Part shown: positions 12,441 to 23,041 of the stretch, piece after piece
Numbering within the stretch: position 1 is the first letter of the stretch
How the letters are laid out: every line of letters starts with the position of its first letter
Assembly: GCA_037043455.1 (NCBI GenBank)
Contig: JAWPHD010000281.1
Location: 124,001 to 188,000, forward strand
Reading direction: 5' to 3'
From: Cyrtodaria siliqua
Taxonomy: Eukaryota > Mollusca > Bivalvia > Adapedonta > Hiatellidae
Length of the DNA stretch: 64,000 nt
Position numbers and translations under genes: made by a program
The notes under the pieces: model-generated
Databases searched by the model: none
The model's input: the letters and a program-made list of their open reading frames with translations, nothing else
Told to the model about the DNA's origin: nothing

Positions 12441-13639
12441 AGGAAAACAACACATATCACATCTAATGTTATTTCTTTAAAGTTTCCTTATTGATAGAAT
12501 ACGCGTTTGTTTCAAGCAGGTAAACAAAGGAATGCACAGTTTTCAAAGTCCAGTACTGAGTGACTCAAAATTTCAAAGCGGAAGTGCAACATTTATGAAT
12601 TTCGTGTTACAAAGCGCACTGTGATTAACAAATCTACAACATCACAGTTTTGTCCTTTCTCCAACTATCTGCAACCCGTTTTGTACCAAACATGTTTGTA
12701 TTTCTCTGGAAATTACGTGGAATTAAGTGTGCAGTATATACATTATACAGCGGAAATCCCCGAGTTGCGTTTCTTTTTTCCTTTAGTATACTTAATAACA
12801 TATATACGGAGCGGAAATAAAAGGTACATCTTTTTTCCCCCTTTATTATATAGACAACAAAACAGGAAATAATAAACGATCTATACAGAATAATTAGATC
12901 GACCACCACCAATAGTCCAAACAAAAGTTTTTTTAAAAAGTACAGTACACTATGGAGTTATCTCCCTTTTTCTTAAAACATGCATTTTTGATAGAAACAC
13001 ATAACATCTACAAACATTACCTCAATTTGTCCTAGATAATATTCTCTATACATTACTTTCGAAAAAAATCAGAGAAAAAACAACACCGATTGTGTAGGTA
13101 GCAGCTTTTGATTATCAACACTCATCAAATTAGCTCCCTTTAAGGTTTGCATATCACCCATAAAAGAGCATTGCTTGGCAAAATGATAAACTGTTCAAAC
13201 GAATATTTAGTACTCTTAGTAAATCAAACATTGTTTAATTAAAGCGTTGTTTATTAAGCGCTGTGAAATTTGCATTTTTATGGATACATTTGTACTGAGA
13301 GTATATTTGCAAAAAGTAAAATTTATTTATTGCCATTTTGGGGGTGAAATATTAAAGGCTGAAAGCATAACATTTCCCCGAATTTGCAGCTAATTTTAGA
13401 GTGCCTCAAAGATAGTTCTTTAAAAAGTTAGGTTTTATCATCCGTTCGATATACTAATAGGAATAGGTATTGTAGGCCAAAAGGCTCTATATGAGGCCTA
13501 TGGGAAAAGCAATAGTGGTGAAAATGGCGGTCTGTTGCACGTCTTGTACTTATATCAAGGAATTTATTAGTGTTGTCTTGTTCCTATTTACATATGATAT
13601 AATCAGCTTAAAGCTTCGTCAGAATAACATAACGTCTCG
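12441..13639. other. Unit sequence without recognisable gene
   Basis: Collinear with 41965-43190 in unit B. Short frames on both strands are not conserved in length between the copies. Nothing is assigned. Confidence 0.4.
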
Positions 13640-14170: not shown

Positions 14171-14818
14171 TACATACACTTTATGAAATTTAACAAGCTT
14201 GGATCATTCGTTTAGCAATTTCTGTAACGATACAATCTATGCCATGGACTATCTTACTGTGTTAATTAAAATGGTTAAAGACACACTAACAAGGAACATT
14301 CTTCTTTCATAATCAAAGCCTTCATATCCGTTTAATTATTTTTATATCTTTATTTGATCATCCATATACACAATAGCAGCTATAATAAAGCATTTTAAGA
14401 CGTATCCACGTGAATTACATGTCCGTGTTGGCAGCAATTAAAAATTAACGACGATCTAAAGAAACATATAGAAATAACACATCTTAACAATCTATCGTGA
14501 ATCAGTTTCGAATCTCTTCTAAAAGCGCAAAATATGTCACAAACATAACAAGGAAAACACAATAGAAAAATGAATATAAACAATTCTAAACTTAGACAAT
14601 CGTTTTCATTATTAAACAAGCCAAAGTTGCACAAAGCAAAATATCCAAATACTGTATAAGAATCAATCAATTTTAAGTTATTGTGTACTGCTGGCTGTCA
14701 CAGTATTGTTCCCAGACGTGGTCCAATCACCAACATCAAGAATAGTTTTTTAGCTGTTCCGATTTCATTTTTACCCATCGTTCCCTTGACCGTCTGAAGA
14801 ACATGCCCTGGTTGCTCC

Positions 14819-15002
14819 TGTGGGCGTTTGCGGGTTTTCTAACTAGATGAAAGAGTAACGACGTCTCTGCGTTTCTATATCTAATTCTCAACTAACCAAC
14901 TATATCAAAAAACATCGGAAGTGACGTCAAACGACGCCACGCAACAACTCGCGTCAATAACGTCACATGATAATAACATGAAATTGCGCTAAATTCCCGA
15001 CA
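14819..15002 (-). repeat. 3' LTR of BEL/Pao element
   Basis: Bounded by TG...CA. It differs from the other LTR by one base that I can find (T versus C six bases before the end, at about 14996). It contains CGGAAGTGACGTCA at 14916-14929, an ETS-type site abutting a palindromic CRE, and a further ACGTCA half site. Immediately inside it, the coding strand reads GCGGCCCCCAGTA rather than a classical purine tract. Confidence 0.9.
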
Positions 15003-15371
15003 TACTGGGGGCCGCAAAATTCAAATGTACTGGCTGAAATTGTTTAAAGTCATAAACAATACTCTGAAGAAATGCATCAATCCTTAAATCAATTAAAGTT
15101 TATCGTTACTTATATCTCAAGAAGCTATGTTAAATACGGATCACTGCTGAGAATAACGTATTAAACATGTTAAAGTCCTTCAGATATTCTGAATCTAAAT
15201 GTCTCTCTGTGAATAGAAATTTACACTATAAGTATATATCTTGCAACATATAACTTAATGAAGACAATATTCTCAAACACTCGTAAAAATGTATGAATTT
15301 ACATCACTTGACGAAAGTTCATTGTCTTTAAAACTTCACTGCGAAATGTGAAAACTATCGCGATTTAAAAG

Positions 15372-16877
15372 TTAATGATCACTATTTTCAGTGATTTCAA
15401 GAGGGTATAACTTCGCTATAGGTCTTGTTGTATATCCATCACTGGTACGGATCTTCGCAGATCGTGTATATCCGTCTCTTCCGGGAGTAAGTTCTTCCAC
15501 GACAGCAAGTTTCCATCGCAACCTCGGAATCTCATCGTGCACCTGCACCACGTCACCGACTTGTATCGTCTGCTCATTTTTACCGGTTTTGTATGCCGTT
15601 CTCGTAAGGCCGTTAAGTATTCGTTTTTCCACCTAACCGAAAAACTCTGCAGTAATGTTTGTAGTTTTCGAGCCCGTTTGGAAATATTCTGCTGGTTGCT
15701 TCCAATTTCGAACTGGATGTCGTTCTGTGGTAACGATGTAAGTCTCCGCCCATGAAGTAGATGTGAAGGAGTGAGTGGCACGGGTTCCAACGAATCGCCG
15801 GAAGTGACGTAAGTCAGTGGTCTGTCATTAAGTACGGCTTCAGCTTCGGTTAACACCGTCTGGAGAGACTCGAACGTGACACAGGTACGGCCAAGTGTTT
15901 TCCTTTAGTGTGGTTTCAACAATGCCGATCATTCTCTCCCACCATCCGCCGAACCAAGGAGCTCTGTTTGGTATAAACCGCCATTCGGTACCTTTCTTGC
16001 TTAATGCGTCTCGTAAGACGGTTGATTCGAACATCTTCTTCAAAATGTTTGACGCTGCGTGGTATGTACTGGCGTTATCTGATATGATAAGTGTGGGTAC
16101 AGATCTTCTGCTAACAAACCGTCGGAAAGCTAGTAGAAATGATTCTATAGTTAAGTTGTGTACAAGCTCAAGATGGACTGCCCTTGTTGACGCACAGGTA
16201 AATAAACATATGTATGCCTTCGATTCTTTGCCGGAACCCGTGCGGACATAAAGTGCTCCACTGAAGTCTACACCGGTTACTGTAAATGGTGAAGATTCGT
16301 CAAACCGATATTTTTGTAGCGGGGGTGGTTCTGGTGTCAGGTAGGGTTTGGAAAAGATTTTACGGCATGTTACGCATTTTCGTAGAAGCGACTTCACAGT
16401 CTGGCGTATTCTTGGAATCCAAAACGTCTGTCTTAAATGACAAACTGTTGCGTTTGTTCCAGAATGAAGTTGATTTTCGTGAGCATTTAGTATAACTAAA
16501 CGTGTAAGAGGATGTTTGACTGGTAGAAGCAGGGGAAACTTCGTATTGTCTTCTAATGGTGCGTTGTGTATGCGACCTCCACATCTGATATCACCAGATT
16601 GATCAAGGTAAAGTCGTAATTGTCGTACGAGTGGTAGTCGTGATCGTTTGGAACGTAAGTTCAAGATTTCTTCCCTGTATGAAGACTGCTGACAATGTCG
16701 TACCCATGTCGTTTCTGCATCAGCAAGCTCTTGTATTGTCAGTGGCCCAGTACGTCTAGACTGGGTTTCAGCTTGGCAGTTGAAAATAAACCTTTTTACG
16801 AAGGCTGTAACTCTTACAAGTTTAAGAAGGTGACTAAATCGGTTGATATCGATTACATCATCTAAATAGCTCGTCAT
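15372..16877 (-). pseudogene. BEL/Pao integrase, frameshifted
   Basis: From the Met at 16877 the frame begins at the end of the RNase H-integrase linker (FSHLLKLVRVTAFVKRF). It carries an HHCC zinc finger (H133, H138, C168, C171) and the DDE core: D204 in TGVDFSGAL, D267 in IISDNAS, E314 in GGWWERMIG. A shift near 15895-15905 moves the frame, so the normal continuation LTEAEAVLNDRPLTYV is read from 15856. A second shift near 15610-15640 leads to the C-terminal GDVVQVHDE..PRLRWKLAVVEEL stretch, ending at 15372. All catalytic residues survive, but the polyprotein is broken in two places and lacks everything before integrase. Confidence 0.88.
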
Positions 16878-16885
16878 ATGTGTAT

Positions 16886-16961
16886 GGCCGTGATCGTATA
16901 GTGGTTAGTACTTCGCGTCGTGGCCGCGACAACCCAGGTTCGAATCCTGGTTACGGCACCA
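16886..16961 (+). tRNA. Full-length mature-form tRNA-His(GTG) copy in the PBS of BEL/Pao
   Basis: The cloverleaf is complete: acceptor GCCGTGA/TTACGGC, anticodon stem TCGCG/CGCGA around a loop with GTG, and T stem CCAGG/CCTGG. It is followed directly by CCA (16959-16961), which eukaryotic tRNA genes do not encode, and preceded by G at 16886, matching the G-1 added after transcription to tRNA-His. On the element's coding strand the CCA end lies three bases inside the 5' LTR, exactly where the primer-binding site belongs. It is therefore a reverse-transcribed copy of the primer, not an independent tRNA gene. Confidence 0.9.
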
Positions 16962-16964
16962 AAA

Positions 16965-17148
16965 TGTGGGCGTTTGCGGGTTTTCTAACTAGATGAAAGA
17001 GTAACGACGTCTCTGCGTTTCTATATCTAATTCTCAACTAACCAACTATATCAAAAAACATCGGAAGTGACGTCAAACGACGCCACGCAACAACTCGCGT
17101 CAATAACGTCACATGATAATAACATGAAATTGCGCTAAATCCCCGACA
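16965..17148 (-). repeat. 5' LTR of BEL/Pao element
   Basis: A 184-bp LTR, 183 of 184 bases identical to the partner by eye. The ETS-CRE composite is at 17062-17075. On the coding strand three T residues separate its CA end from the TGG that begins the tRNA-His-complementary segment. Confidence 0.9.
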
Positions 17149-18779
17149 TCTCCCGCCCAATAAATCCTGACTTGACTGTTTTAGTCCATCCGTTCCAATC
17201 ACCTTGAACTTTCCATTGCCCTGTGGCTTTATAAGTTGCATTGCTTTAAATCTTGCTAAAATGTATTCGCCGTTACCAAACGCTTTCCACCAGGCGTTAC
17301 TGGCCTTCGATTGTGATCCAGAACCTTGATTACCGCTGCTCAATCCACCTGTCCATGAACCCTTTCCGACTCCACCACTACCACCAGCCGAACCGCCTGT
17401 CCACGAACCTTGTCCGCTTCCACTAATTCCACCGGTGGAACCTCCTGTCCACGATCCTGTACTGCAACTTCCACTGACCCAACCTCCTATCCACGATCCT
17501 TGTCCACCACCACCATTATCACCTGCCGAACCTCTTGTCGACGATCCTTGTCCTCTGCCACCATTACCACCTTCTGAAACTTCTGTCCACGATACTTGTC
17601 TACTGCCACCATTACCACCTGTCGACCCTCCTGTCCACGATCCATGTCCACTGGCAGCATTACCACCGGCAGAACCTCCTGTCCACGATCCTTTTCCACC
17701 TCCACCTCCACCATTTCCAGCAGCAGAACCTTCTGTCCACGATCATTGTTCGCTACCACCAATTCCACCAGGAGAACCTCCTGTCCACGATCCTTGTCCA
17801 CTGCCACCAGTACCACCTGCCGAACCTGCTGTCCACGATCCTTATCCACTACCACCATTACCACCATTTGAACCTCCTGTCCACGATCCTTGTCCGCTAT
17901 CACCATTTCCACCGGCAAAACCTCCTGTCCATGATCCTTTTCTACTTCCACCATTTCCACCAGTTGAACTTCCTGTCCACGACACTTGTCCGGTACTGCC
18001 ACTTCCACCGGTCCAACTTCCTGTCCACGATCCCTGTACACTACTGCCACTACCACTGATCGAACCTCCTGTCCACGATCCCTGTCCGCTACTGCCACTA
18101 CCACTGGTCGAACCTCCTGTCTACGATCCCTGTCCGCTACTGCCACTACCACTGGTCGAACCTCCTGTCCACGATCCTTGTCCACTGCTGCCACTTTCAC
18201 CATTGGCCGCACCTCCTGTCCACCACTAACACTTCCACCGCTTGAACCTCCTGTCCAGGAGCCTTCCCCGTACCCAGCAGAACTAGTGGAAGTTCCAGTT
18301 CCAGCATTTGCATCATAACCGAATCCAATATTACCATAACCCTGACCATTACCATGTCCAAACCAGGATCCATCAAAACCAGCGCCGAAGTCAAGACCAG
18401 CATCACCTTCAGTGTTTGCGTGTCGAGCGTATTCTGCTGCCTTCCAAAGTTATTCACCGTCGATGTCTAATTCGTCGCCCAGCTGCTTAAAATCTACTAT
18501 GTTGTAGTCATCCTCTGTTATATTCATAACTATCACTGCTTTCACTGTCACTGTCATCATCGTTTCCCATTATAGCATTATTAACAGGTCCTACCTCGCC
18601 AAGTGGTATGAAAGTAATGTCCGTAATGCCGTCATTTTGACCTATAGGAAGGTTTTCAACAGATCCTACCTCGCCAAGTGGTGTGAAACTAATATCCTTA
18701 ATGCCGTCATTTTGACCTAATGGAAGGTTTTGTACCGATACTACCTCGCCAACTGGTGTAAAACTGTCTGTTCCATATA

Positions 18780-22946: not shown

Positions 22947-23041
22947 GCTCAGGGACACAACGGATATGGCAATGGCGGGGATCGAACCCACGACTTTTCG
23001 ATCATGGGCCAAACGCTCTACCACTAGACCACAAGGCTCCC
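22947..23041 (-). mobile_element. tRNA-like SINE remnant
   Basis: Minus strand: TGGTCTAGTGGTAGAGCG (A-box), CAT at the anticodon position, GGGTTCGATCC (B-box), then TGTGTCCCTGAGCAAGAT resembling a decayed SINE central motif. The unit B counterpart is 48768-48848 and lacks part of the B-box region. Confidence 0.5.

Follow-up and report, generated by a model that had tools for sequence, protein, structure and literature searches.

A whole tRNA-His at the primer-binding site of a deleted BEL/Pao retrotransposon: a probable fossil of primer read-through

Why does an LTR retrotransposon carry an entire tRNA where a short primer-binding site (PBS) belongs? We addressed this question in the window, a 64,000-nucleotide stretch of the Cyrtodaria siliqua genome (contig C281), using the 2.88-Gb host assembly (G000) as the target of genome searches. 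ARAGORN called a tRNA-His(gtg) at 16887–16961 and Rfam matched RF00005 at 16887–16958 (55.2 bits), while base 16886 is a G and bases 16959–16961 read CCA. These calls uphold the description in a first-pass annotation of a whole mature-form tRNA-His in the PBS, joined to the integrase region. Unlike ARAGORN and Rfam, which call the 76 nt a tRNA, RNA folding did not return a cloverleaf for them, and the fold lacked significance (z −1.47; 16 of 200 shuffles were as good). The copied tRNA directly adjoins the 5′ LTR at the expected PBS position and meets the integrase region with its 5′ end at 16885/16886.

The tRNA is enclosed by a deleted LTR element on the minus strand, whose LTR pair and target repeats are both present within the window (Table 1). 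Its LTR termini read TGT...ACA, and the flanking target repeat matches at 4 of 5 bp (GCTCC/TCTCC); in two relatives the repeats match at 5 of 5 bp (L023 on C1289, ACCCT/ACCCT) and 4 of 5 bp (L024, ATGCT/CTGCT). Integrase_H2C2 was the sole domain that Pfam recognized in the window copy. The longer relative L024 (C13455) yielded DUF1759 (1e-39), DUF1758 (1.7e-6), Integrase_H2C2 (8e-11) and DUF5641 (7e-20), with RVT_1 below the cut-off. The occurrence of DUF1759, DUF1758, RVT, integrase H2C2 and DUF5641 in the family is what we take to be the hallmark of BEL/Pao elements, and the window element is a deleted copy of a BEL/Pao-type LTR retrotransposon.

Table 1 Features of the tRNA-bearing element, in window coordinates.
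Feature	Position	Strand	Basis or remark
Left target-site repeat GCTCC	14814..14818	.	4/5 identical to right repeat TCTCC
3′ LTR, 184 bp	14819..15002	-	1 mismatch vs 5′ LTR
Probable plus-strand primer region adjoining 3′ LTR, sense ...GCGGCCCCCAGTA	15003..15020	-	Suggested by position only
Integrase-region frame, C-terminal part, in a frame different from 15840..16877	15416..15856	-	ORF; no Pfam match
Integrase-region frame with Integrase_H2C2	15840..16877	-	ORF and Pfam
Template-switch junction, tRNA 5′ end/integrase region; 2 nt common (1 nt if the template tRNA was without G-1)	16885..16886	.	Comparison with relative
Whole tRNA-His(GUG), G-1 to CCA; complement on the element's sense strand	16886..16961	+	ARAGORN, Rfam
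12 nt equivalent to the family's ordinary PBS, TGGTGCCGTRAC	16950..16961	-	Junction comparison
TTT spacer (AAA on +), LTR to PBS	16962..16964	-	Sequence
5′ LTR, 184 bp	16965..17148	-	LTR pair
Right target-site repeat TCTCC	17149..17153	.	Sequence

The host's own tRNA-His genes provided the next line of evidence. A tRNA-only query gave at least 40 matches (40 of 83 candidates scored), namely the window, a locus on C12589, 36 places aligned over 72 nt (query 2–73) and two slightly shorter ones. In 28 of the 38 gene rows, which we read individually, the nuclear gene has A at position −1 and lacks CCA without exception; 22 of these genes represent one isodecoder and six another, characterized by A57 and T67. 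On both sides, the sequence next to the captured tRNA is unlike the flanks of these 28 genes. Judged against these genes, the captured tRNA corresponds to a mature form and not to a gene plus flanks. The earlier proposal to compare the −1 base with the host genes thus returned A in 28 of 28 against G in the window copy, although its argument that CCA and G-1 exclude gene capture stands only in part. CCA is absent from all 28 genes but is not independent evidence, because the PBS itself provides TGG, and G-1, while differing from every gene read, is ambiguous in both full copies because the integrase landing site also has a G there. The window tRNA combines T33C with T67, a pairing absent from both isodecoders read. 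The tRNA on C12589 differs from the commoner gene at a single position (37, G to T), and no perfect gene match to it was found among the best 40 of 107 candidates scored (best, 99%). Both captured tRNAs have the regular base at position 58. As a side observation, tRNA-His genes are clustered as many near-identical copies on few contigs (C3844, C14929, C4691, C1944 and C2309).

An LTR–tRNA query returned at least 41 matches (40 of 179 candidates scored), including C12589 as a second locus with the whole tRNA in the same LTR family (query from 16885 onwards, 97%; the 76 nt 96% identical). With these 76 nt adjoining one and the same LTR family at both loci, a 76-nt tRNA at this LTR is beyond chance. 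The suggested search for other copies of the tRNA–integrase junction therefore succeeded for the tRNA itself but not for the junction, which differs at C12589. This second, different junction, together with A at −1 and the missing CCA in the 28 host genes, sustains the original idea of copying to the tRNA 5′ end followed by a template switch.

We then took a census of LTR–PBS junctions in the window family, with a query built from L024 (LTR end, PBS and leader). At least 42 matches were obtained (40 of 60 candidates scored): 22 running on into the leader, five ending exactly at the PBS end (C281, C12589, C1130, C346 and C293) and 15 other LTR ends. Among the 22 of at least 27 LTR–PBS junctions that were read (C2860, C7443, C1621, C17305 and C9926 being left out), the tRNA-His complement beside the 5′ LTR measured 12 nt in 15 (with one mismatch each at C256 and C8630), 13 nt in one (C13455), 18 nt in one (C346), 19 nt in three (C293, C1130 and C1700) and 76 nt in two (C281 and C12589), and no end fell between 20 and 75 nt. 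The ordinary PBS of the family is thus 12 nt and not the 18 nt that had been expected, and the longest relative read, C13455, has a 13-nt site with no tRNA at it, which matches the anticipated parent with a short tRNA-His PBS. C1700 and C13455 continue into the ordinary leader; the other five non-ordinary junctions do not do so directly. Nucleotide 18 of the tRNA complement is the last base before A58, and the 19th may derive from the landing site (at C1130 the relative reads ATT). Under a uniform distribution of the seven non-ordinary ends over 13–76, this grouping, which was picked post hoc, would arise with a chance of about 9e-8.

In the window, the tRNA complement ...CACGGCC is followed by ATACACATATG, and the equivalent in L024 is ...CTAGCCCATACACATATG, at the end of the frame preceding the integrase; from this L024 sequence it follows that 2 nt are common and ~3.7 kb are skipped. 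At C12589 the tRNA is joined, inverted, at another site of the integrase gene: ...CACGGCC leads into antisense integrase, and the relative reads ACGGCC there, a 6-nt microhomology; after ~290 bp the sequence resumes in the leader, where 7 of 8 bases match, with an inverted LTR piece further on. At C1130, 19 nt give way to 28 nt derived from the RT region, after which the sequence jumps to an upstream position. At C346, 18 nt are followed by an inverted LTR, joined directly (L059:1567–1760), and L083 (C10767) similarly has 18 nt of tRNA complement, a few bases and then another LTR in direct orientation. At C293, 19 nt are followed by ~635 bp without a match to L024, holding an antisense frame. 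We infer from this patchwork that the junctions preserve traces of template switching during DNA synthesis. The fraction of 5553 sites reaching the shared length was 3.8% for the window (2 nt) and 0.036% for C12589 (6 nt) with G-1 counted, and 21% (1 nt) and 0.09% (5 nt), respectively, without it; these values lean towards a G-1 in the copied tRNA, short of demonstration. In the stretch read, neither a second direct LTR nor a target repeat was seen at C12589 or C293, so that clean integration is established for the window copy alone. The ~635-bp stretch of C293 (L022:5669–6303), lying between the 19-nt tRNA end and element sequence, has antisense open frames of 134 and 62 aa, neither of which gave a Pfam match above the cut-off; it is possibly a foreign transcript copied by a mis-transferred strand. 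Inverted LTR pieces were also noticed at the far ends of L021 and L022.

Taken together, the tRNA in the window very probably records a single round of reverse transcription in which the primer was read through and microhomology-guided template switching followed. Mature tRNA-His would prime minus-strand synthesis on the BEL/Pao element and, still attached to the minus strand, would serve as template for the plus strand. Plus-strand strong-stop DNA would then copy U3-R-U5, the PBS and the whole tRNA to its 5′ end without halting opposite A58, an act of which the endpoint is seen; A58 would have been unmodified or bypassed. Normal pairing of the new 3′ end with the minus strand's 12-nt PBS copy would not be possible, and the tailed strong-stop DNA would act as a primer elsewhere, re-priming at a short match. 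In the window copy this match would lie just past RNase H, so that gag to RNase H was skipped; at C12589 re-priming would have occurred on the sense integrase strand at the six common nucleotides, and a further jump would then have led back to the leader. With two LTRs completed, the window molecule would have integrated. The sequence endpoints, landing homologies, mature-form ends and LTR pair can be read directly, and the tRNA is represented by 76 collinear nucleotides from G-1 to CCA beside the LTR at two loci with different neighbors. Both full copies terminate at tRNA position 1/−1, as a read-through strong-stop (P1) product would. Counting against read-through are the G-1 that cannot be assigned with certainty at either junction, the mere 2 nt shared at the window landing, the unmatched T33C–T67 combination and the 13-nt end at C13455. 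Because the base at position 58 is regular in both full copies, a tRNA free of m1A58 or an accurate bypass has to be assumed. With a PBS of 12 nt, even a strand stopped by m1A58 ends in six 3′ bases that have no partner, and mis-transfer may therefore be frequent in the family.

Among the alternatives, the strong-stop DNA might have switched onto a free tRNA-His through the PBS match, without copying its own primer. Reverse transcriptase can copy other tRNAs, and insertions of tRNA-Asp, tRNA-Glu and tRNA-Gly in retroviruses are described in PMC12220202; nevertheless, an extra switch would be required and the copied tRNA is the cognate primer in the exact PBS register, which makes this route improbable. 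Slightly less probable still is a master element whose long antisense-tRNA leader dated from an earlier read-through and whose deleted descendants are the two full copies. Diverged antisense tRNA-His stretches are indeed common to many copies in other families of this genome, but the PBS is just 12 nt long in 15 of the 22 family members read, and the full copies differ in LTR variant (CAAACG and CAATCG) and in integrase break site while both breaking exactly at the tRNA 5′ end. Capture of a nuclear tRNA-His gene or precursor transcript by recombination is very unlikely: the tRNA is 97–99% identical to nuclear genes, but the −1 base, missing CCA and dissimilar flanks of the genes read led us to reject it, and both copies have their CCA end precisely where the PBS would lie. 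We likewise rejected an ordinary internal tRNA gene. An assembly chimera is the least credible reading, as the window junction is known from the assembly alone but two LTRs and target repeats surround it, a second locus exists and other families hold like structures. What supports primer read-through, the kind of event that the first-pass annotation rightly named, is less G-1 and CCA than the existence of a second locus, the sequences of the host genes and the bunching of ends at 18–19 and 76.

The window copy does not stand alone: other loci and other families also show 18–19-nt ends and antisense-tRNA stretches. A host-genome pattern of TTT plus 19 nt of tRNA-His complement (≤1 mismatch) found 57 places, 18 of them exact and all read, against none for the reversed control. 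Extending the pattern to position 25 (≤2 mismatches) found 40 places, six exact, again with no control hit; 34 of the 40 were read, leaving C265, C876, C2062, C4090, C5429:155733 and C14929:24338, the last of which overlaps a tRNA-His gene. We scored 69 loci past position 19 (52 and 12 from the two patterns and five of the window family), of which 36 beat 200 of 200 shuffles and 33 did not. The 36 comprise two of the window family, nine of family 2 (L070, L071, L072, L073, L074, L076, L078, L084 and L127), 19 of family 4 (among loci L085–L126), four of family 5 (L117–L120), the singleton L128 and, weakly, L099. The loci were selected by patterns that partly cover positions 20–25, but the alignments of family 2, family 4 and L128 extend to 54–74; that of family 5 is secure only to ~34–41. 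Thirteen loci were aligned in full. The family-2 locus L129 has an LTR pair of ~350 bp, 92% alike, and sequence common upstream of the PBS suggests that families 4 and 5 are also LTR elements. Two family-4 frames matched no Pfam family above the cut-off, and L087 has a family-4 LTR with no tRNA extension. In family 3, for which ends before 18 are invisible to the 19-nt pattern, L077, L080, L082 and L083 exit the tRNA at 18–19 nt into four different sequences, and L069 and L075 have one leader in common. Diverged antisense tRNA-His past the PBS appears to be inherited in other, mostly LTR-like, groups, which suggests that primer read-through occurred more than once and was sometimes passed on.

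Some of these copies may also retain traces of base modification. The G37-to-T change of C12589 recurs in L070 and L078 of family 2, all three aligned family-4 loci (L085, L092 and L095) are altered at 37, one of them to T, and all four family-5 copies found have A opposite A58. It is possible, though unproven, that G37-to-T and A opposite A58 are marks of methylated bases. The latter fits m1A misreading but is suggestive only, as the four copies share common descent; a tRNA-His gene with T58 could have supplied the A without misreading. G37 is kept in the window copy and L128, and the fresh copies, those of the window and C12589, have the regular base opposite A58, the window copy carrying T33C and T67; these points count against modification traces. 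According to PMC11574265, human tRNA-His carries m1G37 and zebrafish shows no detectable misincorporation there, which may not hold for this host. We give roughly even credence to a broader proposal, in which read-through is a recurrent, sometimes heritable route to whole or partial antisense-tRNA leaders in the LTR elements of this lineage, with the DNA keeping stops and misreadings caused by modification. Its expected marks, covered by the same even judgment, would be 18–19-nt ends (m1A58), A opposite A58 in one group, G37-to-T in two seemingly independent captures and 5′-end run-off.

Models of retroviral replication routinely include the m1A58 stop, and the evidence on its failure outlined in a 2026 review (PMC13191261) was obtained in cell-free systems, with mutant tRNAs and in mutant cells. 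In that review, the full primer copy made from unmodified tRNA is termed product "P1", and only the shorter products P2–P4, not P1, are described as active templates. The HIV-1 P1 product made with unmodified tRNA-Lys3 resembles the window copy in that the plus strand was copied past A58 to the tRNA 5′ end; it is no active template according to the review, whereas the BEL/Pao copy was apparently completed by template switching and resides in a genome (PMC13191261). In HIV-1 with an A58U tRNA, extra tRNA sequence was not found in proviruses, as stated with data not shown in PMC1785368. Mature tRNA-Gly has likewise been reverse-transcribed and joined to retroviral DNA, namely an MMLV circle recovered by cloning (Colicelli and Goff 1986, as described in PMC12220202) and an HIV provirus (PMC12220202); unlike the window copy, these tRNA copies are non-cognate, four or five bases short at the 5′ end, outside the PBS and from laboratory material. 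HITME recombination in HIV-1 (Konstantinova 2006, as described in PMC12220202) also placed 63–65 nt of tRNA in a viral genome via tRNA-mediated recombination, but at a hairpin experimentally inserted in nef and not at the PBS.

The PBS of Ty1 and Ty3 is short. In Ty3, plus-strand DNA runs into the tRNA and dead-end strong-stop DNA accumulates, and in both Ty1 and Ty3 the first plus-strand strong-stop DNA reaches into the tRNA, as in the window family; unlike there, the tailed DNAs of the window family were apparently used as primers elsewhere and retained (PMC5371799). Helenus TRIMs, which occur in molluscs among others, also hold tRNA sequence within an LTR element, but in the LTRs (PMC10886601), whereas the window tRNA occupies the PBS, external to the LTR, and runs antisense to the element. 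A Helenus-type TRIM was rejected on the position of the tRNA between LTR and integrase, outside the LTR repeat. Among the papers listed in literature searches, judged by title or abstract opening and with most subscription journals outside the scope, we met no LTR retrotransposon with a whole-tRNA PBS.

Rather than a new system, the locus is a natural record, of unusual clarity, of reverse transcription going wrong, a failure that has probably been inherited at times. The host genome holds a completed, integrated product of m1A58-stop failure, plus a second tRNA-tailed copy, with m1A58-length ends alongside. Since such products and ends are present in a genome, junction surveys might read plus-strand strong-stop ends, and perhaps tRNA modification, without experiments. 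Read-through also suggests how an element could come by a longer or altered primer-binding site.

Elsewhere in the window, a large 36-bp tandem array (~120 registers listed) runs from ~7850 to an end near 12500, as estimated from its spacing. A 48-bp repeat array at 17300–18280, beside the element, has more than one open frame (264 aa on the plus and 241 aa on the minus strand). At 22967–23038 on the minus strand, a weak tRNA match (Rfam, 32.1 bits) without an ARAGORN call perhaps marks a tRNA-derived repeat.
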